Origin: Gracilaria domingensis | Taxonomy: Eukaryota; Rhodophyta; Florideophyceae; Gracilariales; Gracilariaceae | Reading direction: 5' to 3' | DNA: 36,545 bases | Assembly: GCA_022539475.1 (NCBI GenBank) | Contig: VCMS01000417.1 | Coordinates: 1-36,545, forward strand | Shown here: positions 4,895 through 36,545 of the stretch, one piece after another | Position numbering within the stretch: the first letter of the stretch is position 1 | Layout of the letters: each line of letters opens with the position of its first letter | Translations under genes and position numbers: made by a program | The notes under the pieces: generated by a model | Databases searched by the model: none | What the model saw: only the letters and a program-made list of their open reading frames with translations | What the model was told of the DNA's origin: nothing

Positions 4895-4899
4895 CTTTT
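4895..4899. repeat. Element A target-site duplication, left copy (CTTTT)
   Basis: CTTTT abuts the left LTR and recurs at 16624-16628 just after the right LTR. A 5-bp duplication is normal for Ty3/gypsy integrases. Confidence 0.93.
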
Positions 4900-5471
4900 T
4901 GTGGTATAGCCGATCGGTGCGAGCTGCTAGTGGGGAGCCCTGCGTGGGCTCGACCCGGCAGAGGAGTGAAACACGTGACACCTAATAGGTCGGCAACACC
5001 CACCGTTGCCTATAGTGCACGGTGACCAAGTGGTAAATACGCCTGCACTGGTGTGCGGCAGGCACGTATAACCCTCAAGGTCAGCAAAACTATTAGAAAA
5101 CTACTAGACTTACCAATTGGTGACTGTAGAACCGAACTGGTGTCAAATTAGCCTAGTTGGTGCTTGACTTTACCATTTGGTGTGGGAGGTTAGCGTCTCG
5201 GGGGTTTAGTACACCCGAGCGCCCCTCCGGCTCTCACGGGCCTAGTGCCACGTGGGCCACCTGGAGGTGCATTTGTGGTGCACCACCCCGGCCACATATC
5301 TATACTACCTAGTAATTATTAATTCTAAATCATCGAGAATAGACTAATTAGTCCTGTCCAAGCCTGCGCTGGCGCGTCCCACGTGGTACAGTAAACACAC
5401 GTGCCCGGGAGCCCGTGACGTCACCACTTGGTCTTGTAGAGCCCCCGTTGATCTGGCCGAGCTATACTACA
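4900..5471 (-). repeat. Element A LTR (3' LTR in element sense)
   Basis: 572 bp, TG...CA ends, matching 16052-16623 except for 9 substitutions. It contains a perfect CRE palindrome TGACGTCA (5416-5423), four CACGTG G-box/E-box cores (4972, 5249, 5380, 5398), and copies of the element's own CCANNTGG motif (5026, 5113, 5173, 5248, 5257, 5379, 5424). The density of bZIP/bHLH-type palindromes suggests stress- or signal-responsive transcription, but no factor is shown. Confidence 0.95.
5416..5423. promoter_or_regulatory. CRE-type palindrome TGACGTCA in LTR
   Basis: An exact CREB/ATF bZIP consensus in the left LTR, repeated at 16568-16575 in the right LTR. It directly adjoins a CCACTTGG motif, with which it shares sequence (TGACGTCACCACTTGG). 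In element sense it lies in the first 60 bases of the LTR (U3), where enhancer sites are expected. Confidence 0.55.
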
Positions 5472-5473
5472 GA

Positions 5474-5483
5474 CCCCCCTCCT
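5474..5483 (-). other. Polypurine tract of element A
   Basis: On the minus strand AGGAGGGGGG is followed by TC and then the LTR start TG. Element B has AAGGAGGGGA-TC-TG at the same place (36128-36137). Position and composition fit the plus-strand DNA primer of LTR elements and confirm the minus-sense orientation. Confidence 0.85.
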
Positions 5484-6469
5484 ACCGACAGGCACGCCCC
5501 GTGGCTGCGAAGTTCCCACGGCGTTTGCCGCCTTTTCGCCAAACGGTCGTCGGCGCGCATCGCCTGGCGCACGGCGCGTCTCGCGATGACGCGAAGACGG
5601 CGCGGTGCACGGCGCGGTTCGCCATATGCACTGCACCGCCATTACCCATGTCGCCGTACCCCCTGTGGTAGGTGCGACCGTACCTTACATCCCTCGTGGT
5701 ATTGGAACGCGAAACCGCGAACCGCGACCATTCAGGTTGATCTTGTCGCGCGCCTGGTACCACGTGGTTGTCTTCGCCTCTTCAGTCCCTCCCGGAGGAG
5801 TCCGCCACTCCATCTTCCCCTGTCCGTCCTCCCCCTGGGCGGGTTAGTCCCGGCTTACCAGTTGGTTTCGAGCCCCCCGTCGGTGGGGTTCGCAGTTGTC
5901 AACCGATCGGCACACCGCCCCCTCGTGGTGTCGCTCCTATTCTTTGTTGGCCACTTGGTCTTGTGCCGTACTGAGGTGATACCTCGTTGGTTCCGACACG
6001 TACTGTTTCTCTGCTTGAGTGAGGGCGCCACTGGGGTGTCGTTGCCTTGGGCGGCGGCGTCGAGGGTGAGGAGACTCCTGCCCGTGGCTCTTCAGACTTC
6101 GTGACCGTACCGGTGCTGACGCCGCTTCTACCTAGTGGTCTGCCTCATCGTGGTGTTCAGGCTTGATTCAGGTCCAGCCGAGGGGTTTACCCGACTGCGC
6201 GGCGTTCAGCGCCCCTCCACCTGGTTCCTCGCGGTCTCCTTCCGTCCCTCAGGTTCCCTCTGGGGTGGTTGTGACCCCCCTTGTTCACGGAACCCGTCCA
6301 GCCGGCTTACAACCCTGGTCATTTTCACGGTGTGTCAGCTCGCTCGAGCGGCGTGCCCGTTCTCTGTGACCCCTCAGGTTTCATCTAGTCATCCAATTGG
6401 TGGTGTTCCCCCTCTCGGTTGGTATCCTCCGTGGCACGCTCTCGCTCCAACTCGCGCCTTTTATACCTC
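5484..6469 (+). other. Leader region upstream of the antisense gene of element A
   Basis: About 1 kb between the 3' LTR and the antisense gene, with no ORF I believe in; the 229-aa frame at 5415-6104 starts in the LTR and has no recognised domain. It is pyrimidine-rich and carries CCANNTGG motifs (5760, 5858, 5951, 6217, 6393). Element B has a leader of similar length (35273-36127) at the same place. It is the natural location for the antisense promoter and 5' UTR. A TATA-like TTTTATA sits at about 6457-6463, close to the first two in-frame ATGs (6470, 6506). Confidence 0.5.
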
Positions 6470-8404
6470 ATGGGTGATCAACCCGCTTCCCCAACAGGGT
6501 GGTCGATGACGTTCGAGCGCCGTGAAGACGGTGCCGAGGAGGGCATCGCGCGCGCCCTTCCCGTTGTGGTGGACCCCGGGGGTGAGACGGCGCCGTTTCA
6601 ATCGAATTACCACGTGGTTGACTCTTCGCAGCCCTGTCTGCCGTCCCAGACCGGTACACCTGTGTCCTTTCCATCGGGCGCCGAGGCTCCCGTGGAGGCC
6701 AACCACTTGGTATTGGAGGAGCCGCACTTCGACCCTATAAAGGGATATTCGGCTTCTGAAGTCTCCCCCTCGGCGGAGGTCAACCGTTCGGTTCGCGAAA
6801 CTGTTGCCTCCCGGTCGAGGATGTCTGGCAAGACCCCTGGGGTAGCGCGCGGCCGCGGAGGTGGCATCTTCAAGCCTAACACGCGGTCGAGTACGCGTTC
6901 TCGTCAAGACCCTTACGGTCGCGGTGGGTATGATCCCTACGCAGCCGCCGCGGGCCCGAGCAACGTTAACCCTCTTGCGGTGGCCGGTACGGTGGAGGCT
7001 CAACAGCTGAATCCTCATGACACTAATAGGACGCACGGGCAGCCGCATGCCCATTATGGTGCACGCTTTGCCGATATCTCCGCCGAATTGGTTGCCCTGG
7101 GGAACTGGCCTTTCCACATCAGTTCCTCACTCTGTCCCTTGCGGTTCCGCCACATGGGTCTCACGCAGTATACCGCAATTGCCCGTTGGGATTGTCGCCG
7201 GTTGGAGGCGGTGCCTATGGCACCTGCTCCACCACGCAAGGGCGAGAAGCAGAGCCGGTTCGGTCGACAACAGTGTTTCCATGCGCGGCAGCGACACACG
7301 AAGTTTCTATACTACATCCCCGTGGCCGTAGCGTCGGATCTCCCCTTCATCCGCTGCGATGGGGAGGTCCACTACTTCCGCCGTTTGGTAGATATCCTTC
7401 ACCGCTTGGACGAACCTGCTACGCACATCGAGGTCGATCTGGAGTACGTCGCGTTTGAGCGCCCTTTAGATACCAATTATTGGACTGACCGTGGGAGGTG
7501 GGCGACCGATGCGATGGCTGAGAACCGTGTTCGTCATCGTAACAACCGTACGCGGACCATGTTCCTGTTCCACAACGTTGAGTATTGGTCGCAGAGCGAC
7601 CACAACCGCCGGACATGGTATGTCAATCGACCCTCTTGGTGGGACCACTATGAAGTATGTCAGTGGCTGGAAGTGCCGACCCCGCCGGTCCTTGCGTACT
7701 TTGGTAGTAGCATCTCCCTCGAGAGGAACAACGCATATGCCGTTTGGTCGGTCGCGCGCAGCGAGTGGGCCGTCATGGTGGCTATCCTCGCCCTTCAGGC
7801 TTCCGTGGAAGGTGTGACTTGGGACACGCGCTGCCCTGACAAGTCTGTCGGGATCAGCGGAACTCAACCAGTTGGTCGTATCTTCAATATTCCCAACGAT
7901 GTGGTCGGCGACATTCGTGCCATGGGGCTCTCCAACATCGTGGAGGGCACCAAATATACTGCGCAGCAGTTGGATGGCTACCTCACTGCGGTAAGTAACC
8001 ACAATTGGGGGCCTGAACAGGGTTGGGATGTCTACGACCCGGAGGTTCATAGCATCGTGCCTCTCCAACAGCAGCACATGGCTGGCGAAGACCCATTTGG
8101 TAATGACGATACCGTGATGGTGGCTGCCGAGAACTATGAGTCCCCCGCATTGCCTCCGTCGGCACCTGTACAGGCTACTCCTCCGACCAGCGTGGCTGCG
8201 CCTGTTCCAAGTGGTCCGGCGAACCCTCAGGCGGCTGCTCACCCTCCCGGACGGGCTGCCCAGGGGCCTCTTCGGGTTGGTTTCCAGTCGCTTCCGGTGA
8301 ATCCGGTGCCCCCTGGTGGTGATAGTGGCGCGATACGGAGCGCTCTGGCTCGTCTCAACCACGCCTCGATGGTGCACTTCAACCGTCCTGGTCTCAATGA
8401 ATGA
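6470..8404 (+). CDS. Antisense ORF of element A, main part (novel conserved protein)
   Basis: I do not recognise this protein. It reads against gag-pol and begins at ATG 6470 (MGDQPAS); ATG 6506 (MTFERRED) is an alternative, and the open frame upstream of 6470 lacks an ATG. Residues 1-170 are low-complexity with an RG patch (GVARGRGGGIF). The rest is a folded-looking domain with matches in order to the antisense ORF of element B: PFIRCDGEVHYFRRL (A, from 7343) with PYLRCPEEREYQRRL (B); FHNVEYW (7568) with WHNVEYF; VPTPPVLAYF with VPTPSVVAYH; SEWAVMVAILALQAS with AEWAVFAFMAFLQAA; MGLSNIVEGTKY with MGLQNILRGTSY. The frame ends at TGA 8402-8404, overlapping an ATG at 8397. Coding similarity continues in the next frame to about 8587, then returns to this frame. 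Function is unknown; a nucleic-acid-binding role is inferred from the RG-rich ends. Confidence 0.8.
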   Translation: MGDQPASPTGWSMTFERREDGAEEGIARALPVVVDPGGETAPFQSNYHVVDSSQPCLPSQTGTPVSFPSGAEAPVEANHLVLEEPHFDPIKGYSASEVSPSAEVNRSVRETVASRSRMSGKTPGVARGRGGGIFKPNTRSSTRSRQDPYGRGGYDPYAAAAGPSNVNPLAVAGTVEAQQLNPHDTNRTHGQPHAHYGARFADISAELVALGNWPFHISSSLCPLRFRHMGLTQYTAIARWDCRRLEAVPMAPAPPRKGEKQSRFGRQQCFHARQRHTKFLYYIPVAVASDLPFIRCDGEVHYFRRLVDILHRLDEPATHIEVDLEYVAFERPLDTNYWTDRGRWATDAMAENRVRHRNNRTRTMFLFHNVEYWSQSDHNRRTWYVNRPSWWDHYEVCQWLEVPTPPVLAYFGSSISLERNNAYAVWSVARSEWAVMVAILALQASVEGVTWDTRCPDKSVGISGTQPVGRIFNIPNDVVGDIRAMGLSNIVEGTKYTAQQLDGYLTAVSNHNWGPEQGWDVYDPEVHSIVPLQQQHMAGEDPFGNDDTVMVAAENYESPALPPSAPVQATPPTSVAAPVPSGPANPQAAAHPPGRAAQGPLRVGFQSLPVNPVPPGGDSGAIRSALARLNHASMVHFNRPGLNE

Positions 8405-8587
8405 CATCCTCACCGCTGTGGATACTCTTACCAACTTGCTCCCCGTGGTTGCTCACCACGAGCGGCGCACTTCTGAGCTGCGACAGTTCCGCGACTACTT
8501 CCAGCGCAATCTCTACCGTGAGGTGACAGCCTATGTTGGTCAGTTGAGCAACCTTGTGGAAGGCCACGCGCCGTTACATCGACCCCT
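8397..8587 (+). CDS. Antisense ORF of element A, helical middle segment in +1 frame
   Basis: The frame starting at ATG 8397 overlaps the TGA that ends the upstream ORF and reads ILTAVDTLTNLL, then REVTAYVGQLSNLVEGHAP. It is leucine/valine-spaced and helix-like. It corresponds to the segment of the element B antisense protein that reads ENQVNQIVQNLRRARASMFD. After about 8587 the similarity passes to the original frame (8588-9199, same frame as 6470-8404). Two compensating frame changes, or reinitiation at the ATGA overlap, would both explain this. Confidence 0.5.
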
Positions 8588-9199
8588 GTGGACAGTTTCA
8601 ACCCGTACGCTCCTGCGTCACAGCAACCTGCGACCCCAATGGTAGGCTTTGGTGGCCTTGGTACGTATCAACTCCCTGGTGGACCTCCTGGTGGTGATCC
8701 TGCGGCACCTTTCCATACTCCGCTTGGTCCTCACAACGTTCCTCTTCCTCTAGCAAGTACTGGGACAGGAGCACCAAGTGGTTTCTCAACTGGTTTCCGT
8801 TCGGCTCCGCTTCCGCCGACGTCCGGTGCTTCTAGGCCGCCTACTGGTCTGACCCCCGGTGCAGGGCCGTCTAGTGGTCTTGCTCCTCCGACCTCTGGTG
8901 GCATCCCTCCGTCTAGCTTACCGCCTTCCTTCCATCCACCCACTGGTCCTGCGAATACCATGCCGGTAGTCAGCAGCGGTACCCCTGCGGGACCTGCTGG
9001 TACTTCTGCTCCCTTACCAAGCGGTGGTGCGCCACCGAGCGCGGCTAGCGGCGGGGGCGGAAGCTCCGCCGGACCTATGTCGGTGTCCTCTGGTCGTGGA
9101 GGTTCCGCTTCATCTCGCGGGACCTCCCGTGGACGTGGTCGCGGTCGTGGAACCAGTCGTGGACGCGGACGTGGCCGTGGGTCCTCCAAGGCCTCCTAA
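8588..9199 (+). CDS. Antisense ORF of element A, Pro/Gly/Ser-rich segment with RG-box tail
   Basis: Open in the same frame as 6470-8404. The nominal start is GTG, so it is a continuation, not a separate gene. About 150 residues are rich in Pro, Gly, Ser and Thr. The last 35 are dense in Arg-Gly (SRGRGRGRGTSRGRGRGRG), an RGG/RG box of the kind found in RNA- and chromatin-binding proteins. The element B antisense protein has the same layout and a similar tail (GGRGRGGTRGRGRG). Stop TAA at 9197-9199, with a poly(A) signal 39 bases on. Confidence 0.75.
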   Translation: MDSFNPYAPASQQPATPMVGFGGLGTYQLPGGPPGGDPAAPFHTPLGPHNVPLPLASTGTGAPSGFSTGFRSAPLPPTSGASRPPTGLTPGAGPSSGLAPPTSGGIPPSSLPPSFHPPTGPANTMPVVSSGTPAGPAGTSAPLPSGGAPPSAASGGGGSSAGPMSVSSGRGGSASSRGTSRGRGRGRGTSRGRGRGRGSSKAS

Positions 9200-9237
9200 G
9201 TCACCTCGTGGTTCCCTCTCGTGGATTCTTCTCGACT

Positions 9238-9243
9238 AATAAA
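9238..9243 (+). terminator. Poly(A) signal AATAAA for the antisense gene
   Basis: AATAAA 39 bases after the antisense stop, followed by a GT/T-rich run (GTGTCTTGCATTGTGTTC) as expected of a cleavage site. It lies between the antisense stop and the pol stop at 9352, so the two genes converge here. This supports real plus-strand transcription of the antisense gene. Confidence 0.65.
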
Positions 9244-9351
9244 GTGTCTTGCATTGTGTTCTCTGATCTTCTTTTGTTTTCCTGTTAGGTTAGTTAGTTA
9301 GCTTTTCGTGTAGCGTGGCGTTCAACAGCTTCGATAACCCCCCCCCTTTCC

Positions 9352-10842
9352 TTAGCGACGCGTACCACGCGAAGCAATACCAGTTGGTGGGGGCGTTCGC
9401 CCTTGTTTGCGCCAGTATCGGATGATGAAGTTGTTAGGGATATGACCAGGTGGTTCCATAGAGTCGTGCTCGGGCGACCATCCATACCATCTTACCCGGT
9501 AGCGCATACCCTTTGTGGTGTGTTCGTGACCTACAATGGTGTCAATAGCGCACTCCTGAGCGTCTACTTGAGGGTGTGACTCTTCCATTTGGTCATGGGG
9601 TGCGTGGCTCCCCGTGGGTGGTGTGACCCGTTGGTCTTGCCGAGGCTCGATCTCCTGTGCCGCTTGGGTCGTGGGGTCAGCCGTTACGGCTCTGGTGGAA
9701 GGTTGACCGCTCGGCTGACTCATCATAGGAGGGGGTATGGGAGACGTTTGCTCCCTCTCCGCTTCCTGCTGCGTTGGCTCACCTATTGGTTGTGCATTCG
9801 CTGTCGTCGGTTGTGCGGCCTTGACAATCCTGTCGATGGAGACCGTGTTCTCCAAACCTTCCATTATGACCGTAGCGGTATGCTCGTCGGAGCGAATCAC
9901 CTTGTATGGTCCCGTGGACTTGGGTAGTAGTTTAGAATTGATATCCTCCTCAAGGCGGATGTCCTCTTCCATCTCCGCTGGGGTTGGTCGCTTACCTTTT
10001 GGTGGCACGTCAAGGAAGACCATGTCTCCTGCTACCACTTTGGTCACTTTGCTCACCGTTCGGTCATAGTCCGCTTTATACCGTTCTTGGGCTGCTGTCA
10101 TCTTAACTTTGGCAGCAGCCAAAGCGGCGCGTAACTTCTGGAGTATGTCTCTCTTGACCTTCGCCGGTGTGAGTGTCCCGGCCGCTTCCGAGCGGTCAGG
10201 TCCAGGCTGGACGATAATACCATGTGGTGTTCGCGAAAGTACCAGGTCGAATGGGGTTGTTTGAGTGACCCTGTGGACCTGGAGGTTGTACGCATATGTC
10301 AATGGTTGGACATACTCCGACCATGTGGTTTGGTGCTCTTCGACATAGTGCCGTAGGCGTGCCACTAGGGTCTTATTGAAGCGTTCCACTTGGCCGTTTG
10401 TTTGAGGATGATAGGCCGTGGTAAAGTAGTGCTTGACCCCTAGCATTGTACAAACCGCCTCGAAGAACTTAGAAGCTAGGTTCGAACCGTTATCGGTCAG
10501 TAGGTACATGGGAGCACCGTACGGGTAGACCCAATTCTCCAGGAAGGCTGTCGCTAGTGTCGTTGCCGTTTGGTTCTTCAGAGGTATGGCTCTGGTGAGC
10601 TTTGTGAACCTGTCGGTTATGACTACTACAAAGCGATAACCCTCTGAGGTCTTGGGCAGGGGCCCCAGTATGTCGATTGCTACGAATTCCAGGGGCCCCG
10701 CCGCCGGGAATAGCTTTAGGTACTTCCTGTGCTTCGCCACACCACCTCGGGTCTTAATGCACGAATTGCATTGCGCCACATAGGTATATACATCGTTAGC
10801 CATATGCGGCCAGTAGAATTGCCTCCGAAGGGTATAGTACAA
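9352..10842 (-). CDS. Element A pol, integrase and chromodomain
   Basis: C-terminal part of pol. It inserts cDNA into chromosomes. It holds the end of the HHCC zinc region (FYWPHMAND, then CNSC) and a DD35E core with Asp at 10672-10674, Asp at 10492-10494 and Glu at 10384-10386 (spacing 60 and 36 codons). A chromodomain at the end (YRVRWYGWSPEHDSMEPP, about 9400-9560) is expected to steer integration toward modified histones. The listed start is a TTG, not a start codon: this is the continuation of pol after a single-base loss near 10870. The integrase motif usually read GQAER is GQVER here, because a CCAAGTGG motif occupies those codons (10386-10393). Confidence 0.9.
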   Translation of the reverse strand: MYYTLRRQFYWPHMANDVYTYVAQCNSCIKTRGGVAKHRKYLKLFPAAGPLEFVAIDILGPLPKTSEGYRFVVVITDRFTKLTRAIPLKNQTATTLATAFLENWVYPYGAPMYLLTDNGSNLASKFFEAVCTMLGVKHYFTTAYHPQTNGQVERFNKTLVARLRHYVEEHQTTWSEYVQPLTYAYNLQVHRVTQTTPFDLVLSRTPHGIIVQPGPDRSEAAGTLTPAKVKRDILQKLRAALAAAKVKMTAAQERYKADYDRTVSKVTKVVAGDMVFLDVPPKGKRPTPAEMEEDIRLEEDINSKLLPKSTGPYKVIRSDEHTATVIMEGLENTVSIDRIVKAAQPTTANAQPIGEPTQQEAEREQTSPIPPPMMSQPSGQPSTRAVTADPTTQAAQEIEPRQDQRVTPPTGSHAPHDQMEESHPQVDAQECAIDTIVGHEHTTKGMRYRVRWYGWSPEHDSMEPPGHIPNNFIIRYWRKQGRTPPPTGIASRGTRR

Positions 10843-10864
10843 CCGCGTGGCTCCAGGGTGCCCG

Positions 10865-11060
10865 AAAGCCGTGGATTGTGTGACAGATATAACACCCTTT
10901 GTCTTAATGACTCAGGTACGACCTTCTGGAGAGCTCCGTCTAAAGGTGAGCGTCTGATGAGGTACCCATTGTGGTCGACGTCGAAATGAGAATCCTTCCT
11001 TCCAAGTACGTCAGCGAGCGTCTTGCACAACCTATCGGTCGATTGTTCGCGTAAGATTCC
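10865..11060 (-). pseudogene. Element A pol, integrase N-terminal bridge in a third frame
   Basis: Between the RT/RNase H frame and the main integrase frame the coding similarity runs in a third frame: CKTLADVLGRKDSHFDVDHN, then LIRRSPLDGALQKVVPESL and VLYLSHNPRL. Element B reads the same region in one frame (LIRRSRLDGALQKVVPESL, then LAHYPRLVGHPGATR). The frame changes near 11050-11060 and near 10870 each look like loss of one base. They separate integrase from the rest of pol in this copy. Confidence 0.8.
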
Positions 11061-13864
11061 TCACGGGTGATTGGAGCGTGTTCCCCTTCCTCCACAGGAA
11101 GGAGGGTCTCCACTACCACTTGGTACGTACTGTCATCATGCCAGTATCCCTTCAGAACTTCATTGACCTCGTGGTTAGCTGGTTCTATAGTAAAGCATGG
11201 GATGTCGTCGTCCACTGGGTCAGTGTCCAATCCTTCGGTATTCAACCGGGACAATGCATCCGCCACTCGGTGCTTGACCCCGGGGCGGTACTGCACATCG
11301 TACTCAAACTCCGAGAGTCTCAGACGCCATCGGGCCAGACGACCCGATGCGTCCGCCAAGCCTAATATCCACCTCAAGGAGTCGTGATCCGTTCGGAGCG
11401 TGAAGCGCACACCATATAGGTAAGGACGTAGCATGAGCATGCTCCAAACAACCGCTAGGCATTCCTTCTCCGTTACGGTGTAGTTCTGCTCCGCTTGGTT
11501 AAGAGCTCTACTCCAATACCCAATTGGTGCGAGCTTGCCGTCCTCCTGTTCCTGCATTAGGCAGCAACCTATTTGGGCGTCCGACGCATCCGTGTCCAGT
11601 GTATACGGGAGTCCCGTTTTGGGCAATGCCAGTACCGGTGGGGAGAGAAGCGCTGCTTTCAATGTATAGAACGCCTCTACCTCGTCCTCTTCCAGGTGGT
11701 CAAAGTGTGTGGGCTGCCCCTTCTGCAACCTCCGGTTCAGGGGTGCGGCTATCTTTGCAAAACCCTTGATGAACCGCCGGTAGACGTTGCATAGACCTAT
11801 AAAGGATCGTATGTCCGTCTGCGACGTAGGGAGCTTCGCTTCCTGTACCGCTCGGATATTCCGTTTGGTCACTTCGAGTTTCCCGGGGCTTATTGTATGC
11901 CCTAGGTACTCTACCTCTTGGTTGAAGAACATACACTTTCGTAGTTTGAGGGTCACGCCTGCCTCTTGTAGCAACTGCAGTACCACTTGGACGTGTGAGA
12001 AGTGCTTCTCTATGGACCTCGAGTAGATGACTACGTCATCTATGTATACCAATGCGGTTGTCCACTTCACTTTAGACAGTATAATGTCTAACGCCCTTTG
12101 GAAGGTAGCGGGGGCGTTTCTTAAACCAAACGGCATGCGTAAGAAGCGATACAGGCCTGCGTGGCATGTAAACGCAGTCTTATCACGGTCACCCTCTGGT
12201 ATTTCGATCTGCCAATACCCGCAGTTGGCGTCCAGTGTGGTAAAGATGTTCGCATCTCCTAGGGAGTCGATGCATTCATCCATCCTCGGGATGGGGTACG
12301 AGTCCCTTACCGTTACGGCATTAAGTTTTCTGTAGTCAATACAGAACCTCATACGGGTCTCTCCTCGTTTTTGGACTAGCACTACAGGGCTAGCCCATTC
12401 CGAGTTTGCCGGTTCTATAACCCCCTCGCGGAGCATCCGCTCTACCTCCTCCAGCTCTACCTCACGGGCCTTATGTCCCGCACGGTATGGCTGTTGGTGG
12501 ATGGGACGGGAGTCCGGTTTGAGGTCAATCCTGTGCTGGGTGGCCTTAATGGCTCCCAGCTTACCCGACCACATGGTACTGAATGGCTCCAGGAGTCCAA
12601 GGATCCGAGCTCTGAGCTCTTCCCCTTCAAGTCCTATATTCACCTCCGTCTTCCAATTGGTCACTGGGTCGAGCTCCAGTTTCTGGTCTTCTCGCTCAGC
12701 TAGTCGCTGCACCATATGGTCTGTTCGCGACGAATTCAACGAATTGACACTGCCCCCCCCTTCCTTAGCATCCACGACCTCGTGGGACCATTGTGGTATA
12801 ATCGTAAAGATCGTACGGGGAGCCGGTAAGGCAAGACCAATTACGGTGTGTTTTGGCAACTTGACCGGGCGGTTGCTGAAGTTACTCAGGTAGACCTGAA
12901 ACGGTTTTGTCGGTATGTTGTCGACTATACCATTCGCCATTAAGGTCATGTGTCGTTCGGCCAACCGTGAATGGTTCTGAACGGATAACAGGCCAGGTTG
13001 TTGGCATGTGACCTTCACTACCAAGTGGTTCATAGGCGGTATTGTTACCGCCTTTGCCAATCGCACCTTGTTGGAGAGTGTGTTTTCCGGGACCGGTTGG
13101 TGTCGAGTGCGGTTCTCTTTCGGAGAGGCACCCTTGTGGTTACCAATAATGGCGATCCGGGGGCCATTATGGAACAGAACTGTCTTAGAACGTGGAAAAA
13201 TTGCCCTGACATGCTGGTCTATAAAGGTTGTGCCGAGGATACAGTCTGTTGCCAGTTGGTTAACGACTATGAAGCGAACTCGGACCCTCATGGTGTCAAT
13301 CAATACCATTATGGTAAGCGCTCCCATGACGGTTAGTGGTCTGTTGTTGGCGTCAACCAGTGGGTTAGTTAATGTACATGGCTGAAGCTTATTAAGTTGT
13401 CTGTTAGTTAATAGTTTGGCATTCACCAGATTAGGTCCTGCCCCGGTGTCCAGGACAGTGACGCATGGTACCAAGTGGTTAGAAGTAAACCCGAGGGTGA
13501 CGTTTACCTTATAGTTACTATGCTTGAGAAAGCATATCGGTTCGGTGCCGTCCATGAGGCTCTCCTCCCCTGTAACCAATGGGTAATTGTCTATACTTGC
13601 ACCACTTGGTTCTGGAAGGCCTTCCGTCTTCGGACAGTTGGGGAAGGCCTCTATCCCAACTGTTCGGCGTTTTCCGCCTGCGGGGCGGGATCCGTTTGGT
13701 CCTGCTCCGTGACGAGGTGTACCTGATGAGGTGTGGCTGCATTGGGTCGCGCATTTGCGTGTCCCGTGCCTGCGCTCCGTGCCGGGGGCCCAAATATATC
13801 CTGGTGGTTCTGCTGGCGAGCAGTCAGGAGAGCGTTCCTGTTCTGCGGAGCCACACTTGGGCAC
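10940..13864 (-). CDS. Element A pol, protease, reverse transcriptase and RNase H
   Basis: Copies the element RNA into DNA. Protease active site LDTGAG (DTG at 13442-13450) is intact. RT follows with FCIDYRKLNAVTVRDSYP, MPFGLRNAPATFQRALD and the catalytic box YIDD (12035-12046). RNase H follows with TDASDAQIG (about 11570-11600) and later VADALSRL. The frame is -1 relative to gag and overlaps its end (13651-13864); the nominal start codon is GTG, so expression probably depends on gag-pol frameshifting. CCANNTGG motifs sit inside protease and RT codons, e.g. NHLV at 13471-13478 and VQVV at 11983-11990. Confidence 0.93.
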   Translation of the reverse strand: MPKCGSAEQERSPDCSPAEPPGYIWAPGTERRHGTRKCATQCSHTSSGTPRHGAGPNGSRPAGGKRRTVGIEAFPNCPKTEGLPEPSGASIDNYPLVTGEESLMDGTEPICFLKHSNYKVNVTLGFTSNHLVPCVTVLDTGAGPNLVNAKLLTNRQLNKLQPCTLTNPLVDANNRPLTVMGALTIMVLIDTMRVRVRFIVVNQLATDCILGTTFIDQHVRAIFPRSKTVLFHNGPRIAIIGNHKGASPKENRTRHQPVPENTLSNKVRLAKAVTIPPMNHLVVKVTCQQPGLLSVQNHSRLAERHMTLMANGIVDNIPTKPFQVYLSNFSNRPVKLPKHTVIGLALPAPRTIFTIIPQWSHEVVDAKEGGGSVNSLNSSRTDHMVQRLAEREDQKLELDPVTNWKTEVNIGLEGEELRARILGLLEPFSTMWSGKLGAIKATQHRIDLKPDSRPIHQQPYRAGHKAREVELEEVERMLREGVIEPANSEWASPVVLVQKRGETRMRFCIDYRKLNAVTVRDSYPIPRMDECIDSLGDANIFTTLDANCGYWQIEIPEGDRDKTAFTCHAGLYRFLRMPFGLRNAPATFQRALDIILSKVKWTTALVYIDDVVIYSRSIEKHFSHVQVVLQLLQEAGVTLKLRKCMFFNQEVEYLGHTISPGKLEVTKRNIRAVQEAKLPTSQTDIRSFIGLCNVYRRFIKGFAKIAAPLNRRLQKGQPTHFDHLEEDEVEAFYTLKAALLSPPVLALPKTGLPYTLDTDASDAQIGCCLMQEQEDGKLAPIGYWSRALNQAEQNYTVTEKECLAVVWSMLMLRPYLYGVRFTLRTDHDSLRWILGLADASGRLARWRLRLSEFEYDVQYRPGVKHRVADALSRLNTEGLDTDPVDDDIPCFTIEPANHEVNEVLKGYWHDDSTYQVVVETLLPVEEGEHAPITREESYANNRPIGCARRSLTYLEGRILISTSTTMGTSSDAHL

Positions 13865-15918
13865 GCTGTTGCCAAGTGGTGGGGCGACAAACAGAACCCA
13901 CAGAGGAGATTGCCGGTTGTGGGGTCCTTCATCGCGAGCGACGACGCGCGCGATGGGGGACGGCCTCCAGTAGGTACTGCACTCCGTTGCTGCGGGTATG
14001 GTCCTTGTTCACCATATTGCTTGAATGGTACCGCTAGGACCGGGCTGACCGGTACGGATACCTGTGATGGTGGAGCTGAGGTTTGTCTCGAGGGTGGCTC
14101 GCTGGATAGCGAGCTGGACCAAGAGGTATTACCGTGCGATCGAGTTGTCGGTTGTGCATGCACCAAGTGGACTGGGTGACCCTGGGAGGCGTATTGTGTG
14201 GACGCCTCCCCCGTAGTGGTCTCCTCTTCCTCTACGTCAAACACTGACCGCCTGGTTTTTCCTTTCTCCTTCGATGGTTTGCCAAGTGGTGCGGAGTCTT
14301 TCCTGGCCCCTGACCGAACGGTGTCGCCTAGTCCCTGTGCATGGCGGGCTAGTGCGTTGTAGTCGACCGTGCGGTTGGTAGCTAGGTAGTTACGAACCTG
14401 TGATCGGATAGACTTCGCCACGTTGTCGGCGTACATCGATTTCAACCTTTTGGTAGTAAAGACGCTTCCACAGCGGGAGGCTAATGCCCATAAGGAGCGA
14501 GCGAATTCCAATTCGGTTTGTCCCGCGCGCTGGCGGTACGCAAGCACCTCTGCGTACGCCTCCTGGATTACCTCATCGGTCGCGTAGGTTTCCAGTAGGA
14601 AGTTAACCACCTGTGGGTATGTCGTCAACATTTCCGTTTGGTCTTCGTCCACCGCCATGGTGTTTCCTTCGAGGCGGCTGTGGAGCAACGCTCCAGCCTG
14701 ACCGGTTAGGTAAAATTGAAACAGCCACATGGCTGCTGCCTCTGAAAACCCATTCTGATCACAAGCGATCTTGAACCTTTGAAGGAAATCAATGATCGCA
14801 ATAGGGTCATCCCCGCTAAAGCGAGTTTCACCCAGTTGGAAACGAAGCTTCCTATGATGCTTCGTTATCTTCTGAGCTACCTCTTTGGTATACTCAGCCT
14901 GTCTGTTCTCTAACCTATAGGTACGATAGTCAACCGCTTTGGTGAATAAATCATTGAGTGGCGTAAGCACCTCTAGGTCAGTCTCCTCGTCAGAAGTTGA
15001 GTCCGAATCGTTATACCTTTTGGTCTTACCCTTGCGGGGATTCTTTCCTTTCTTCTTGCGAGAGTCCTTCCTCTTGCGTCGTGAACCTGTACGGTCGTCG
15101 TCTCCTGACGAATCCGAATCGGTGTCTGAGGACGAAGAGTCCGAGTCCGACCGGCGACTCTTTCTCTTTCCCCTTTTGGTTTTCTTCTTCTTACCATTTG
15201 GTTTACGTCGACGCTCGTCTCCTGAGCTCGACGAATCTCCATCAGGGTCTCCACCACTTGGTCCTGACGGAGCTACACCAGTAGGTTGGGGGAGGTAAAC
15301 GTACCTCGGGCCCTCCATCCCTGGAGGCTCTGCCCCTTTCCCCATACGGTCGATATATCCTTCACCAGTCGGTTGTGTAGGAAGGTTAGGGTGGAGAATA
15401 CCAAGTGGTTTGGTGGCGTCTACTGCAGGCGGGGGAGCTTGCTTCATGAGCGCGGCCTGGGCCACCATCTCAGGTTGAAGCTTAGCCCCCTGCTGCTACA
15501 GAGCCAGCATAACCAATCGGTCGATGTGTCCTCGCACCTCGTTTTCGAGGTACTGTAACACCACCACAGGTACCTTGTCGAGGACCTCCTGGGAGGCTCG
15601 ATCAACTACCACTCGGGTGACCTCGTCCAAGTCCAGTCGCGGTCCGACTGGCACCTCCATTTGGTCTACCACTGGGGTTGTTACAGGAGCGGGCTCCGCC
15701 CTTGCGGAGCCTGCTCCTCCGTCCACTTGGTCAGCCCGGGGAAGGGTCGAGGGGCCCCCAGCCTCTCGGTCTACCTTCTTCCCCCTCGGTGGGCGTTTCT
15801 TCCGAATCAGGTCCTCCGGGTTATCCAACACCGGATAGGACACTGAACCCCGTATGAGGTGACCACTTGGTGGAGCGCTCGGCGCCCTATTTGGGTAGCG
15901 CGCGCCCCGTTTCTCCAT
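13651..15918 (-). CDS. Element A gag, with one in-frame TAG
   Basis: Capsid/nucleocapsid polyprotein. ATG at 15918 (MEKRGARYPN) opens 140 codons, then TAG at 15496-15498, then the same frame runs on (next ATG 15468) for 605 codons to TAG 13651-13653. With the stop read through, the length is about 756, close to the 732 aa of the uninterrupted gag of element B. Domains in order: a variable N-terminus; a Ser/Asp/Arg/Lys-rich tract (15060-15240); the capsid-like core (FSGDDPIAIIDFLQRFKIA); and one CCHC knuckle CGFCLSPHHLATAC (about 13861-13902). The TAG most simply derives from CAG. I treat it as a nonsense mutation, though TAG-CAG-CAG could allow some readthrough. Confidence 0.85.
13669..13675 (-). 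promoter_or_regulatory. Candidate -1 frameshift site G GAA AAC in element A
   Basis: In gag frame the heptamer reads G-GAA-AAC and lies exactly five codons before the gag stop; pol is in the -1 frame. Element B has the same heptamer at the same place (28485-28491). It departs from the strict X XXY YYZ rule in the P site but is similar in kind to the G GAU UUA site of retroviral pro-pol. No clear downstream pseudoknot was worked out. Confidence 0.45.
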
Positions 15919-16028
15919 TTAGGTAACTGGCGTCGGAGCCAATTGCTTCGGCAACGGGAACCAAACCACTCGGGTATCTCGTGACTTCCAAATCCTCCCT
16001 TCCCAAAACCACTTGGTAATCCACAGAT

Positions 16029-16046
16029 TTCTAAGTCGGGAGACCA
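16029..16046 (-). other. Primer binding site of element A
   Basis: TGGTCTCCCGACTTAGAA on the minus strand, five bases inside the 5' LTR. The identical 18 bases are at 26237-26254 in element B. The implied tRNA 3' end (...TCGGGAGACCA) has discriminator A73 and G72, implying a C1-G72 pair. That is the eukaryotic tRNA-Tyr signature, and yeast tRNA-Tyr ends CGGGAGACCA. Assignment to tRNA-Tyr is inference. Confidence 0.8.
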
Positions 16047-16051
16047 AAATA

Positions 16052-16623
16052 TGTGGTATAGCCGATCGGTGCGAGCTGCTAGTGGGGAGCCCTGCGTGGG
16101 CTCGACCCGGCGGAGGAGTGAAACACGTGACACCTAATAGGTCGGCAGCACCCACCGTTGCCTATAGTGCACGGTGACCAAGTGGTAAATACGCCTGCAC
16201 TGGTGTGCGGCAGGCACGTATAACCCTCGAGGTCAGCAAAACTATTAGAAGACTACTAGACTTACCAATTGGTGACTGTAGAACCGAACTGGTGTCAAAT
16301 TAGACTAGTTGGTGCTTGACTTTACCATTTGGTGTGGGAGGTTGGCGTCTCGGGGGTTTAGTACACCCGAGCGCCCCTCCGGCTCTCACGGGCCTAGTGC
16401 CACGTGGGCCACCGGGAGGTACATTTGTGGTGCACCACCCCGGCCACATATCTATACTACCTAGTAATTATTAATTCTAAATCATCGAGAATAGACTAAT
16501 TAGTCCTGTCCAAGCCTGCGCTGGCGCGTCCCACGTGGTACAGTAGACACACGTGCCCGGGAGCCCGTGACGTCACCACTTGGTCTTGTAGAGCCCCCGT
16601 TGATCTGGCCGAGCTATACTACA
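16052..16623 (-). repeat. Element A LTR (5' LTR in element sense)
   Basis: 572-bp partner of 4900-5471 (9 substitutions, no indels), with TG...CA ends and the same CRE palindrome at 16568-16575. In element sense the R/U5 end faces the primer site. The region 15919-16028 between primer site and gag ATG is a short leader of about 110 bases that also carries a CCACTTGG (16009-16016). Confidence 0.95.
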
Positions 16624-20476: not shown

Positions 20477-20497
20477 GGGGAGCTCACTTAAGCCGCC

Positions 20498-25689: not shown

Positions 25690-25694
25690 CCGAC

Positions 25695-26235
25695 TGTCGT
25701 ATAGCACGATCTGGCTGACCGCACGGACGGAGTGGATTGAGAGGAGTGCCGTGTCGTACGTGTCGGGCTGGCCCGAGCGGATAGTTGTACGCGTGATTGT
25801 CCCCGCATCGGATATCGGTCCCAAACGTACGTAGGACACGTGTGCCGGTCGGACGGTGACAGGCGTAATATAGTACTGTAAGTTGCTACCTAGAGGCTGC
25901 ACAGAGGCGGGTTTACCCGATATTTAGGTAGACCCCAACCTCGCCATGACCTCACGTTGTAAACACCAAGCACCCTTTGCCGTACGTCTTGCTCGTCAAG
26001 TAGCGCTACCGACAGGCCGTTAAGCTAAGTACTACAAGGTTTATTAGGCCGTTCGTACCCTTTTGCACGCTCCTGAACGTGCTTGGTGATACCAACCGCC
26101 CACTCTCCCCGCTGACCGCCCGGTGCTTCCTCCTTACTCCCCGTACGGATTCATTACAGTCGCTCCCTCGAGCCGCAGCTAACTCCGTCGCCTCAAGACC
26201 GCTTCGGGTTTTCTCCCGATACGTACTATATCACA
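25695..26235 (+). repeat. Element B 5' LTR
   Basis: 541 bp from TGTCGTATAG to ATATCACA, ending one base before the primer site. Its first 406 or so bases recur at 36140-36545. It contains CGTACG at 25755, 25826, 25981 and 26142 (the last within CCGTACGG), the motif that recurs through element B. Confidence 0.93.
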
Positions 26236-26236
26236 C

Positions 26237-26254
26237 TGGTCTCCCGACTTAGAA
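26237..26254 (+). other. Primer binding site of element B
   Basis: TGGTCTCCCGACTTAGAA, one base after the LTR, identical over 18 bases to the primer site of element A (16029-16046). It is compatible with a tRNA having C1-G72 and A73, i.e. tRNA-Tyr-like. Confidence 0.85.
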
Positions 26255-26310
26255 GTGGAATTCGAGACCGCACGGAGTTTACAGCACCGAATTGGAAACG
26301 ATACTCGAAG

Positions 26311-28509
26311 ATGAGCTCGAACGTCCCACACGGAGATCAAGGAGAACGGCAGGTCGCAGAAGACAATGCTGAGTCCACTTTGGCCGCCCCTCGCGCCGCT
26401 TCGGACCATGCCTCGGTAGGCCGCCGGAGCACCCGAAGTACCGCGACGGCCTACGTGACCCCCTCAGAAGAGCCCGAACGGGTAATCCGTGAAGGCAACT
26501 TGCAAACCAAATCGGACCGAAGGAAGAAAGAGAGGAGTAAGAACTCCGGGCCCCCTTTGAGAACTGAGATTGTACCACCTGGGACGGCGGCACTCCCGCC
26601 TATACCTCAGACCGGACGGAGACCACCCCACGAACTATGGGCCGAAATAGCCCCGTACGCCCTGGAGGGACTTCGCACGGAGATCGAGGTTCATGTACCC
26701 ATGGCGATCAAATTATATCTCAAGGACCGTATCCCGGAATTGATGCGTCGTGACATCACACCGATCATACACCGCATCGTGAACGATGCGCTGGGATCCA
26801 GACGTACCGAAAGCGGAATGCAAGAGAATCTGAGTAACACCTTGGCCGCTTTGGTAGCTAAGCTACCACCCCAACCCCCAAAGTTTGACACTGACCAAAC
26901 GGACAACGCACCTAGTCGCGGTGAGAGACAGGGACCGGAAATGGAGAAGGATCCGCAGAGGGATCCGACCGGTGTCTATCTCCCACCAGTACCCCCTCAG
27001 GGTGACCCGGACGGAAGCTCGAGCGATTCCTCCGACGACGGGAGGAATCACCGCAAACGAGGCGGTAAACCGGGCAAGCATTCCGATTCGGACAGTTCCG
27101 TACGTAGACGGAAGAATCGTCGCCGCCGCAGAGGGCGACGACATTCAGATACTGACTCCGCGTCCTCGCGCTCATCATCAGAGGATGAGCAGACCGACTC
27201 GGATGACTCTGGGGACTCTCAAAGCCCCCGAAGAAAACGCAAGTCCGAACGGCGACGTTCCCGATCGGACAAGTTGACGCTTAAGCGCCTCCGACCTCTG
27301 AACGTCAAGTTCACCAAGGTTGTGGACTACCGTACGTACCGGCTCATTCGGCGCAGCCATAAGTACGACTCGAAGGTAGCACGCAAGATCGCGCGCTATC
27401 AAAAGAAATTGAACGTCCAGATGAAAGGACATTCATTTTCCGGAACGGATCCCATCTCCGTTCTCAATTTCTTGCAGCGGTTCAAAACCGCTTGCAACCA
27501 TAACGGACTGACAGAAGGAGCGGCACTGTGGTGCTTCCAGTTCTACCTAACCGGGCCCGCACACGCTCTGGTCCAATCCCGCCTCATCGGTGAGTCGGGA
27601 GCGGTCGACAGGCCTCGCGATGAAGCGCTCCATACGTACGAAGAGGTGGTAAATTTCTTACTGACCACCTACGCCACGGATGAAGTCATCGCCACGGCGT
27701 CCGCAGAGGTGACGTTTTACACCCAGTCGTCAGGGATGTCCGAAACGGAATTCGCCCAGAAGCTCTGGACGAAAGCCCTCCGCTGTGGTAACGTATACAC
27801 CGATCGGGACTTGAAGGGCTTATTTGTCCAAGGACTTTTGCCCGCCATACGGTCAAAGGTGCGGAATCACCTCACCACCCATCCCAGTATCGGATACGAC
27901 GCGCTCGCCCGTTATGCGGAATCGTACGGCGATACTCACCGCCCCTCACGCCGCCAGTCCGTTCGGGTGGACACGCAGACTACGTCTGCTCGGCCTCGTG
28001 CCACTCGTACGATAAGGAAGGTGCACCAGGTCGAGTCCCCCTCGGCCTCGACGTATTCCCTGTCGGACGACGACGGCAAAGATGTCCTCATCGTTTCCCA
28101 GGGGTCTTCCATGCCGTCACCACCCACCACACCAAGTGCAACCACCCCAGCGACTTCCGCACGGTCATTCCCCAGTACGCCCGGCCAAAGATCGAGCAAC
28201 CCCCCTGGCGCGGCGTCAAGGGACCGTCCGTGCAGGATTTGCCTCTCGCGAGAGCCGAACTGCTGTCAACTTCTCCCACCGGACGTTAAAGCTAAACTCC
28301 TCGCAATCCGCGAGCAAAACTACCAACGCCGGCGCGACGAAGGGTACTACGGCACCGGCATATCCACACGGAGAAACACGCCACCGCCATCCAATATCGG
28401 TTTCCGTAAAATTGGCCCGACTCGTACCTCTTACGCCCAGCCTCGGCAGGCAGCCATGCTGGTGGAAGAGACCGTTTCGGAACAGGAAAACGAGCCGGAG
28501 GATGCGTAG
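26311..28509 (+). CDS. Element B gag
   Basis: Intact 732-aa gag from ATG 26311 to TAG 28507-28509. N-terminal region, then an acidic/serine run followed by an Arg-rich tract (about 27000-27270; RRKNRRRRRGRRHSD). The capsid-like core (FSGTDPISVLNFLQRFKTA, near 27436) matches that of element A. The zinc-knuckle position reads CRICLSREPNCC: the two leading Cys remain, but the His and last Cys of the CCHC pattern are not where expected, unlike the CCHC in element A. RNA packaging may depend on the Arg-rich tract or on another copy. Confidence 0.92.
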   Translation: MSSNVPHGDQGERQVAEDNAESTLAAPRAASDHASVGRRSTRSTATAYVTPSEEPERVIREGNLQTKSDRRKKERSKNSGPPLRTEIVPPGTAALPPIPQTGRRPPHELWAEIAPYALEGLRTEIEVHVPMAIKLYLKDRIPELMRRDITPIIHRIVNDALGSRRTESGMQENLSNTLAALVAKLPPQPPKFDTDQTDNAPSRGERQGPEMEKDPQRDPTGVYLPPVPPQGDPDGSSSDSSDDGRNHRKRGGKPGKHSDSDSSVRRRKNRRRRRGRRHSDTDSASSRSSSEDEQTDSDDSGDSQSPRRKRKSERRRSRSDKLTLKRLRPLNVKFTKVVDYRTYRLIRRSHKYDSKVARKIARYQKKLNVQMKGHSFSGTDPISVLNFLQRFKTACNHNGLTEGAALWCFQFYLTGPAHALVQSRLIGESGAVDRPRDEALHTYEEVVNFLLTTYATDEVIATASAEVTFYTQSSGMSETEFAQKLWTKALRCGNVYTDRDLKGLFVQGLLPAIRSKVRNHLTTHPSIGYDALARYAESYGDTHRPSRRQSVRVDTQTTSARPRATRTIRKVHQVESPSASTYSLSDDDGKDVLIVSQGSSMPSPPTTPSATTPATSARSFPSTPGQRSSNPPGAASRDRPCRICLSREPNCCQLLPPDVKAKLLAIREQNYQRRRDEGYYGTGISTRRNTPPPSNIGFRKIGPTRTSYAQPRQAAMLVEETVSEQENEPEDA
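28485..28491 (+). promoter_or_regulatory. Candidate -1 frameshift site G GAA AAC in element B
   Basis: The heptamer is in gag frame exactly five codons before the gag stop, as in element A. The -1 frame is open from here into pol (its first ATG is 28527). Conservation of both sequence and distance in two diverged elements favours function, though conserved Glu-Asn residues would look the same. Confidence 0.5.
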
Positions 28510-28526
28510 GGGCGTCGTCTCCTCCG

Positions 28527-31500: not shown

Positions 31501-32714
31501 GACCCTTTACCAGATCCCTTAACGGATGCCAGTATATCCTGGTAATGACCGATCGGTTTAGCAAGCTCTCGCGAGCCATACCGCTGCGGTCAACCACCGC
31601 CCCAGTGGTAGCCAAAACGTTCTTGGAACATTGGGTTTACCCGTACGGCATCCCGAACTGCCTACTAACCGACAACGGACCGCAGTTCACGTCGAAGTTT
31701 TTCGAGGCCGTCTGCTCCGCACTGGGCACGAAGCACGTTTCGACCACTGCGTATCACCCCCAGACAAACGGGCAGGCCGAACGGTTCAACAAGACGCTGG
31801 TGGAGCGCCTCCGCCACTACGTAGCAGACCACCAAAGGACGTGGCACGCATATGTCCAACCCCTTACGTACGGATATAACCTCCAGGTCCATAGGTCTAT
31901 CGGAACCACCCCGTTCGCGGTCGCACTAACGAGGACACCCCCCAGCGTCCTCATCGACGAACCCAGTACGTCCTTGGACCCTGCAACACCGACTCAGCCG
32001 TCCGCAGCCCAGTTGAAGCGATACACACTCAAACTCCTACAGGCGACGCTTCGGACCGCGCGGACAAAGCTGACACGCGCACAGCAGCGCTACAAGGACG
32101 ACTTCGATAGGACCGTCCGGTTTCGCCCTACGTTCGCGGAAGGCGAGGAAGTGTACATTGACCGACCCAATTACAAAAGCACGGAAGAGGACCTAACGGA
32201 ACAGGAACGAACTCTTCGGAAACTACTGCCGAAGACCACCGGTCCGTTCAAGGTCAAAGCCACAACGGACACTACCGTTACTATCGATGAAAACGGTATC
32301 GAACACACCGTCTCCATTGATCGCGTCACACGCGCCCCGTCCGCACGGCCTACGAGTAGCCCCGTTACCACCGAACGTACACGGGAGGAACCCGTCGCTG
32401 ACCCGGAGGGACCATTCGCGGACGACGTCGTCGACCGCGACGATTTACCGCCACCCGATACGGTTCCTTGCGTCGTGGAACGCGTCGTAGCGCACCGCGA
32501 TAGGCCGGACGGAGTCCAATACCGCGTACGCTGGTACGGCTACACCGCCGAATCCGACACCTACGAACCCCCTTCCAACATCCCGCAGCACTTTGTCGCA
32601 CGATACTGGCGTCGCCGAAGTCGTACGACATCGGCAACACCCTTAAGGAGGGGGAGAGAAGCAGACGGAAGTCCGTCGGCCGGACAAAACGCCACCTACT
32701 CCCCAAGCACGTGA
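28527..32714 (+). CDS. Element B pol (protease, RT, RNase H, integrase, chromodomain) with one in-frame TGA
   Basis: Pol is in the -1 frame relative to gag. Protease motif reads LDTRAG (28710-28718) where the active site should be DTG; the Gly-to-Arg change is expected to kill the protease. RT has RFCVDYRR, then TGA at 29799-29801 in place of the Leu of the RKLNAV motif, then NAVTVRDTYP, MPFGLKNAPATFQRALD and YLDD (30075-30086). RNase H: TDACDRQVG. Integrase: HYPRLVGH...CRSC zinc region and DD35E (Asp 31491-31493, Asp 31671-31673, Glu 31779-31781; GQAERFNKTL). A C-terminal chromodomain follows (YRVRWYGYTAESDTYEPP, near 32519-32572). Apart from the TGA and DTR the 1.4-kaa frame is open throughout. 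Confidence 0.93.
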
Positions 32715-32906
32715 CGGGCTCCAACCGACACGGATACGACCACTGACGCGCGACGGTTGGCCGGATATTCGCCCTAACCGTACGCTCATTGGCTCACCCC
32801 CTTTTTTCGATCTAGTGAAACGCCGCCTTTTCCGATATCGGCACTTTACGTCAACGGATTCAACCTGACGTACGCAAAGGAAGAATGCACACAACAACAC
32901 AAGTTT

Positions 32907-32912
32907 ACTCAA
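32907..32912 (-). terminator. Variant poly(A) signal AGTAAA for element B antisense gene
   Basis: AGTAAA on the minus strand about 25 bases after the antisense stop (32937-32939), followed by a GT-rich run CTTGTGTTGTTGTGTGC. The layout matches AATAAA plus GT-rich sequence after the element A antisense gene. Weak alone, stronger as a pair. Confidence 0.4.
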
Positions 32913-32936
32913 GGACACGCACGACATTGGAACCGT

Positions 32937-36127: not shown

Positions 36128-36137
36128 AAGGAGGGGA
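36128..36137 (+). other. Polypurine tract of element B
   Basis: AAGGAGGGGA followed by TC and the LTR start TG; the same layout as in element A (5474-5483). Confidence 0.85.
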
Positions 36138-36139
36138 TC

Positions 36140-36545
36140 TGTCGTATAGCACGATCTGGCTGACCGCACGGACGGAGTGGATTGAGAGGAGTGCCGTGTC
36201 GTACGTGTCGGGCTGGCCCGAGCGGATAGTTGTACGCGTGATTGTCCCCGCATCGGATATCGGTCCCAAACGTACGTAGGACACGTGTGCCGGTCGGACG
36301 GGACAGGCGTAATATAGTACTGTAAGTTGCTACCTAGAGGCTGCACAGAGGCGGGTTTACCCGATATTTAGGTAGACCCCAACCTCGCCATGACCTCACG
36401 TTGTAAACACCAAGCACCCTTTGCCGTACGTCTTGCTCGTCAAGTAGCGCTACCGACAGGCCGTTAAGCTAAGTACTACAAGGTTTATTAGGCCGTTCGT
36501 ACCCTTTGCACCTCCGAACGTGCTTGGTGAACCAACCGCCCACTC
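36140..36545 (+). repeat. Element B 3' LTR, truncated by the window end
   Basis: Matches 25695 onward with no substitutions but five one-base losses: one near 36300 and four in the last 45 or so bases. About 130 bases of the LTR and the right target duplication lie beyond the window. Confidence 0.93.

Follow-up and report, generated by a model that had tools for sequence, protein, structure and literature searches.

The DNA analyzed here is a stretch of 36,545 nucleotides from the red alga Gracilaria domingensis (contig VCMS01000417.1; referred to as the window), in which element A, a chromovirus (i.e., a Ty3/Gypsy retrotransposon with a chromodomain) of 11.7 kb, occupies positions 4900..16623 with gag and pol on the minus strand, as judged from its long terminal repeats (LTRs) and Pfam domains, and bears gapped dyads of the ACCANNTGGT type throughout. 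The two LTRs of 572 bp (4900..5471 and 16052..16623) end in TG..CA, differ from each other at 9 positions, and are flanked by a 5-bp target-site duplication, CTTTT (4895..4899, with its partner at 16624-16628). On the minus strand, a gag open reading frame (ORF) of 605 amino acids (aa) at 13651..15468, assigned by position, holds a zinc-knuckle-like CX2CX4HX4C motif (read by eye) and has no Pfam match; pol comprises a first part with the reverse transcriptase and RNase H (10940..13864; PF00078, PF17917, and PF17919) and a second part with the integrase and chromodomain (9352..10842; PF00665, PF17921, and PF00385). The region that separates the end of pol from the LTR contains a gene on the plus strand, the antisense gene, whose first part spans 671 aa from stop to stop (6389..8404); the frame is interrupted after 8404, and a second part in another frame, with an RG-rich tail at its end, was placed at 8522..9199 by comparison with the L005 frame. 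Element A splits a gene with frames at 3951-5003 and 16619-18082 (minus strand), which look hAT transposase-like by eye and have no Pfam match, and its GC content exceeds that of its immediate surroundings.

The original prediction, made from the letters of the window, had claimed 22 exact copies of one 8-bp word in element A and none elsewhere in the window, which the counts confirm: CCAAGTGG occurs 10 times and CCACTTGG 12 times, all within 4900-16623, and neither is present in the remaining 24.8 kb. Two of these copies lie in each LTR, leaving 20 that are independent. The predicted expectation of about 0.4 copies was slightly too low, since an order-3 Markov model gives 1.25 for element A; the strong excess holds. 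Similarly, the motif CCANNTGG is found 54 times inside element A and 7 times outside it in the window, and the commonest 10-mer of the element, ACCAAGTGGT, has 14 copies against 0.2 expected. The confinement of the word to element A, true in the window, does not extend to the genome examined (77.9 Mb in 680 contigs), in which CCAAGTGG occurs 5369 times and a reversed control word 2453 times; one further family-A copy on contig C4 forms a cluster of CCAAGTGG among the matches listed, and it is these genome-wide counts and this one other cluster that describe the motif as sporadic elsewhere. All numbers of matches in the genome given below are lower bounds.

The real unit in element A is a gapped double-strand palindrome, ACCANNTGGT, of which the 8-mer is one form. 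Counting one LTR, CCA-N2-TGG occurs 48 times (5.9 expected) and ACC-N4-GGT 62 times (7.9 expected); 70% of the CCA-N2-TGG sites have an A directly 5' of CC, and the outer positions carry little information. A spacer longer by one base is tolerated, as ACC-N5-GGT reaches 37 copies against 8 expected. The union of CCA-N2-TGG and ACC-N4-GGT amounts to 85 sites with a mean gap of 131 bp, and adding the N5 form yields 122 sites with a mean gap of 91 bp. These dyads are spread over LTRs, leaders, and all ORFs; the density of CCANNTGG is highest in the LTR (7 sites in the 572 bp, 12.2 per kb), followed by gag (4.4), pol (3.8), and the first and second parts of the antisense ORF (3.0 and 1.3), and gag alone holds 5 exact 8-mers and 14 ACC-N4-GGT. 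No tandem array was found in element A, so that tandem duplication of a motif-bearing unit was rejected as a source, and an uninformative search for two motifs at a fixed distance returned 0 matches.

Coding sequence was taken into account by shuffling synonymous codons within each ORF, which keeps both the protein and the codon usage. In the coding parts of element A, the exact word is observed 14 times against a shuffle mean of 1.14, and none of 2000 shuffles reaches 14; likewise, CCANNTGG is present 32 times (9.4 in shuffles) and ACC-N4-GGT 49 times (12.7 in shuffles). For the four larger ORFs taken singly, the CCANNTGG count is reached in 0-4 of 1000 shuffles, and the weakest single-ORF result concerns the integrase part, where the one copy of the exact word is matched by 90 of 1000 shuffles. 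The 14 of the 22 exact copies that lie within codons encode NHLV, PSG-, QVV, PLG, and other peptides; six are in phase 0, eight in phase 2, and none in phase 1, so the predicted use of different reading frames is true of two of the three. Codon bias and repeated peptides are therefore rejected as the source of the motif, as had been argued beforehand, because the codon shuffles fail to produce it and two reading frames are in use. It is thus extremely improbable that the dyads are a mutational or compositional artefact, whether of biased codon use, of tandem repetition, or of a bias in replication or editing: the GC-richness of element A relative to its direct surroundings would suit such an origin, but neither the codon-usage-preserving shuffles nor the order-3 Markov model gives the counts, element A has no tandem array, the mirror orientation (GG..CC) is flat in all 16 stretches scored and most other spacings are flat as well, and the dyad differs between families within one genome.

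This last difference is visible in the window itself, in which a related chromovirus, element B, bears a dyad of its own that the original prediction, with its single motif, had overlooked. Element B (25694..36507, plus strand; outer borders from a repeat match alone) holds 43 copies of CCG-N2-CGG against 8.9 expected, and only 4 of CCA-N2-TGG, without enrichment; in its coding parts, CCG-N2-CGG is found 33 times against 10.8 in codon shuffles (0 of 1000). Domain matches place its reverse transcriptase, RNase H, integrase, and chromodomain at 29805..32714 (plus); elements A and B both are chromoviruses, with these enzymes in Gypsy order and a C-terminal chromodomain between LTRs. The antisense gene of element B, on the minus strand, is broken into several frames: an upstream piece (34260..35006) and a middle piece (33776..34609) match the antisense protein of element A with E 7e-11 and 8e-16, respectively, and a downstream piece with an RG-rich tail (32937..34172) is assigned by position and composition. 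As a separate observation, the palindrome CGTACG is in excess in the coding parts of element B (window 25694-36138; 24 against 7.4 in codon shuffles) and may represent a further site or belong to CCGTACGG. The window also holds a third Gypsy element (20591-25294, plus), whose gag-pol-like ORF of 1567 aa runs from protease to integrase by domain matches; no chromodomain, antisense homologue, or dyad excess was found in it, and in codon shuffles of its pol as a control, CCA-N2-TGG is found once against 1.5 and CCG-N2-CGG twice against 2.1.

When the pol genes of elements A and B are aligned, only 2 of 28 site positions coincide (0.6 expected), which argues that most sites arose separately in the two elements, and shared ancestral site positions were rejected on this count. 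Within family A, ten diverged copies were drawn from at least 87 antisense matches, with 19 of 20 pieces obtained and one beyond its contig. In all ten copies the CCA-N2-TGG cores have changed less than their flanks, and in seven of the ten they have changed less than CCA/TGG triplets elsewhere; whole ACC-N4-GGT dyads are retained above the same-triplet expectation in all ten (P<0.05 in eight), although these copy-wise tests are not independent because the copies share ancestry. For each pattern, a copy also has between 0 and 8 sites without a counterpart in element A, and most sites are not inherited in place. Selection thus keeps the sites at the DNA level against the demands of protein coding, as the counts show and the retention supports; together with the palindromy, which shows no sign of RNA pairing in elements A and B, the codon shuffles and the retention of ACC-N4-GGT support the prediction that selection acts on the DNA itself to keep a bound site throughout the element.

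Beyond the window, ten further genome loci of eight lineages were read, making 12 loci with elements A and B. Eight loci of 4 kb and one of 3 kb were taken from at least 146 antisense matches, and one locus without an antisense match nearby (C227, read as L059/L060) was taken from at least 175 integrase matches; loci C390 and C398 lie outside this sample. Chromovirus pol evidence consists of a chromodomain or pol end in L055, L056, L057, and L059 and an integrase match adjoining L052 and L053, and L050, L051, L054, and L058 are presumably chromoviruses as well, judging from the shared antisense gene. Related dyads occur in the ten further loci, namely CCG-N2-CGG, CCG-N4-CGG, ACC-N2-TGG, or CCC-N3..5-GGG, and the excess is clear in 10 of the 12 loci and borderline in two (L054 and L058), with P values Bonferroni-corrected over 36 patterns. 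For example, L050-L052, copies of one family that are 93-95% identical over the compared stretch, hold 18-27 copies of CCG-N2-CGG against 2.6-3.5 expected (P 1.5e-8 or less), and L053 holds 11 against 1.2 (P 1.6e-6); CCG-N4-CGG is found 14 times against 1.7 in L056 (P 1.3e-7) and 23 times against 2.8 in L057 (P 2.2e-12). The best description of L055 is ACC-N2-TGG (18 against 2.8), with CC-N3-GG at 52 against 23 (P 2.5e-6). At the C227 locus, L059 has 18 copies of CCC-N4-GGG against 1.9 expected (P 1.3e-10), and L059/L060 has CCC-N3/4/5-GGG counts of 14/18/14 and 68 copies of CC-N5-GG against 22; beyond roughly position 500 of L060 the sites become sparse, and this point is taken as the end of the element.

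Codon shuffles give the same picture for CCG-N2-CGG in L051 (15 against 2.6) and L053 (10 against 1.5) and for CCG-N4-CGG in L056 (8 against 1.7) and L057 (14 against 3.3), each with 0 of 1000 shuffles, and a weaker one for ACC-N2-TGG in L055 (7 against 3.1; 15 of 1000). All four control stretches are flat, i.e., the Gypsy element without an antisense homologue, the hAT side, the stretch between, and the DNA beyond the C227 sites; two of them (C, 18500-25600, and mid, 16624-20000) have 1.5 kb in common. At L053, an ORF with an N6/N4 DNA methylase domain (L053:1-963, C26:169055-170017, minus strand; PF01555, E 6.8e-17) adjoins the antisense gene of the CCG-N2-CGG family; it may be outside the element, since CCG-N2-CGG is absent from stretch 1-700 of L053.

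A homologous antisense gene, whole or broken, is found in 11 of the 12 loci, and the antisense proteins of elements A and B belong to one family, which has long open frames at many loci and invariant residues across eight sequences. The frame of the family-A protein, interrupted in the element A copy, measures 935-946 aa in 19 of the 30 best genome matches. Outside this genome, a first profile search returned no relatives, which is probably explained by low-complexity words crowding its candidates; a search with the core returned one protein and a core profile three, including two hypothetical proteins of Gracilariopsis chorda, so that the relatives outside are few (these two and two unnamed proteins). 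FastTree trees of the antisense cores, built from two alignments and from antisense proteins alone, with element B represented by its middle piece, place B with L053 and L050-L052 (support 0.947 and 0.901; CCG-N2-CGG), L054 with L055 (0.999 and 0.986; CC-N3-GG, borderline in L054), and L056 with L057 and L058 (1.000 and 0.995; CCG-N4-CGG, borderline in L058), and they set element A (CCA-N2-TGG) apart together with P0001. On this comparison, the version of the motif follows the tree of the antisense protein.

The proposal that may best join these observations is that each chromovirus family of this genome labels its DNA with a double-strand binding site of its own, consisting of two half-sites, CC(x) and (x')GG, which are everted and separated by a spacer of preferred length. 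An element-encoded protein, probably a homodimer, would read the sites; the likeliest reader would be the conserved antisense-strand protein, which is favoured by the occurrence of its gene in 11 of 12 loci and by the different motif versions of its clades. Coating of the integrated DNA, above all of the LTRs, might keep the family transcriptionally active or shielded from host silencing and would leave host genes untouched. By analogy with the VANC proteins of Arabidopsis transposons (PMC5735166), the simplest use of such marking would be to shield the family itself from silencing or to activate it selectively, the high density of sites making the effect specific. Taken as a whole, this proposal is held with slightly less than even confidence; the binding, the binder, and the outcome are inferred. 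The element-encoded binder that had originally been suggested is accordingly plausible, given the homologues in 11 of 12 loci and the agreement of motif version with the antisense tree, and a site-dense locus without the gene (C227) speaks against it.

Several further results also weigh against the proposal. The antisense protein offers little that would mark it as DNA-binding: the eight proteins searched have no known Pfam domain at E up to 1, no solved relative matches below E 0.09, and an AlphaFold model from a 7-row alignment, with a mean predicted local distance difference test score of 35, is too poor to show a DNA-binding fold. Co-variation fails to single out the antisense gene because gag and pol travel with it. 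The two borderline loci both possess it; L054 has an intact antisense frame of 782 aa and a CC-N3-GG excess that is borderline at best (P 0.022, before counting the two statistics tried), none of four tested patterns there beats the codon shuffle, and L058 reaches P 0.014 for CC-N6-GG. The stricter CCA-N2-TGG is retained above expectation in seven of ten family-A copies, with P<0.05 in only three. Moreover, a cytosine-5 methylase (PF00145) was not found in a six-frame search of the genome, for which the named controls are prokaryotes; DNA methylation removal is thus unlikely to be the function here, and the target may instead be histone-based silencing or transcription control.

Two other adverse points concern the nature of the site and are shared with the view that the dyads act as stem-loops of the genomic RNA to which Gag binds in packaging. 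On the gag-pol sense strand, A is commoner than T in the spacers of both element A and element B, which a perfectly symmetric site would not need (A: AA 5/TT 0 and AC 5/GT 0; B: AA 8/TT 1 and CA 7/TG 0), and by a rough comparison this bias exceeds base composition; wobble (G-T) forms are raised about twofold in L051 (14 against 7.1) and L059 (8 against 4.1), with other variants in L059 rising as much (2.04). Multi-site packaging occurs in some RNA viruses, and the two triplets of ACC-N4-GGT could pair as a 3-bp stem around a loop of 4 bases. Nevertheless, wobble variants are not enriched beyond other variants in element A (ACC-N4-GGT, 10 against 10.0, ratio 1.00; CCA-N2-TGG, 1.34, with non-wobble variants higher at 1.53), element B (1.15), or L057 (0.89), other complementary triplets at the same spacing have ratios of 0.82-1.17 in the six sets tested, and the exact word is balanced between strands in element A (10 against 12). 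RNA stem-loops are disfavoured on this evidence, and as an explanation they are very unlikely; the sites are better understood as double-stranded DNA.

If the sites are bound as DNA, the binder could also be another protein of the element, such as Gag or the integrase with its chromodomain, that recognizes its own complementary DNA or integrated copies, e.g., for packaging, nuclear import, or self-targeting, and the antisense protein would then serve otherwise. L059 fits this account, since it combines dense dyads with a chromodomain pol end and no antisense homologue appears in the 5.2 kb read after pol; so does the Gypsy element at 20591-25294, in which neither a chromodomain nor a dyad excess was found, but which fails to separate the two accounts because it lacks the antisense homologue too. 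However, only one locus without the antisense gene was read, and Gag proteins and integrases are not known to recognize dense internal double-strand palindromes; this alternative is considered unlikely.

Host DNA-binding proteins, either exploited transcription factors or silencing or centromere factors, might likewise occupy the sites. The CC..GG half-site logic is common to all 12 loci (weakly in two), which would suit a single family of proteins, possibly host ones, acting at all of them; L059 manages without the antisense gene, and the LTR holds the densest sites. Conversely, the families differ in the third base and in spacing, so that a matching host protein would be needed for each group; sites for a host silencer should be lost from active elements, whereas the ACC-N4-GGT sites are kept; and the host and hAT stretches tested have no dyad excess. 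A host binder is thus unlikely too, to about the same degree as Gag or the integrase.

Returning to the antisense protein as the reader of the sites, a broader form of the proposal can be put forward tentatively, with lower confidence than the marking itself: red-algal chromoviruses may possess a self/non-self code, in which a half-site and spacer particular to each family are written by selection through coding sequence and matched by an antisense DNA-binding protein of undescribed fold, the code diverging as families split and C227-like members riding in trans. To our knowledge, dense family-specific self-marking of mobile DNA is known from one group of plant DNA transposons, and no report of red-algal retrotransposon motifs of this kind was found in the open-licence PMC literature. 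If true, such marking would also exist in red-algal LTR retrotransposons and could be written through protein-coding sequence; furthermore, a set of naturally varying proteins, with half-sites and spacers that vary to match, would make the evolution of DNA-binding specificity testable. It would also suggest a role for the antisense genes of LTR retrotransposons, the functions of which in plants are called unknown in the parts of PMC7264820 seen.

The layout of element A has counterparts in other LTR elements. Human T-cell leukemia virus type 1 (HTLV-1), for instance, carries an antisense regulatory gene, HBZ, in its 3' part, and the likeness to the present antisense gene is one of layout; HBZ is not known to us to bind scattered sites throughout the provirus. 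PMC11963269 mentions the antisense genes of HTLV and, with PMC7264820, describes in the portions consulted the antisense ORFs of the plant Gypsy elements Retand, Grande, and RIRE2, with their TRP28 domain (PF04195). As in these elements, the gene lies between pol and the 3' LTR and is conserved in its lineage, and the Retand product is suspected to bind DNA; unlike the present elements, Retand belongs to a non-chromovirus lineage of flowering plants, PF04195 (Transposase_28) has no match in the eight antisense proteins (Pfam, E up to 1), and no element-wide binding motif is reported for Retand-type elements in the consulted parts of these two sources.

The nearest known system is the VANC/VANDAL anti-silencing of Arabidopsis, from which the present one differs in protein, motif layout, and host. 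According to the sections seen of PMC5735166 and PMC10398659, a family of these Mutator-like elements bears a dense, short, family-specific motif that is sporadic elsewhere; the targets in PMC5735166 are YAGTATTAY for VANC21 and AGTTGTCC/AGTTGTAC for VANC6, and these motifs are mainly non-coding, share a single orientation, and often form tandem repeats. The dyads described here are instead palindromic, dispersed, in both orientations, and dense in coding sequence, with no tandem array in element A, and they belong to an LTR retrotransposon rather than a DNA transposon. VANC removes DNA methylation (PMC5735166), in contrast to a genome in which the six-frame search found no cytosine-5 methylase, and the VANC domains DUF1985 and DUF287 have no Pfam match among the eight antisense proteins at E up to 1. 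What the two systems share, as far as the VANDAL sources were seen, is a dense family-specific motif and related element proteins that go with different motifs, and by this analogy the antisense protein may be VANC-like in function without sharing its domains.

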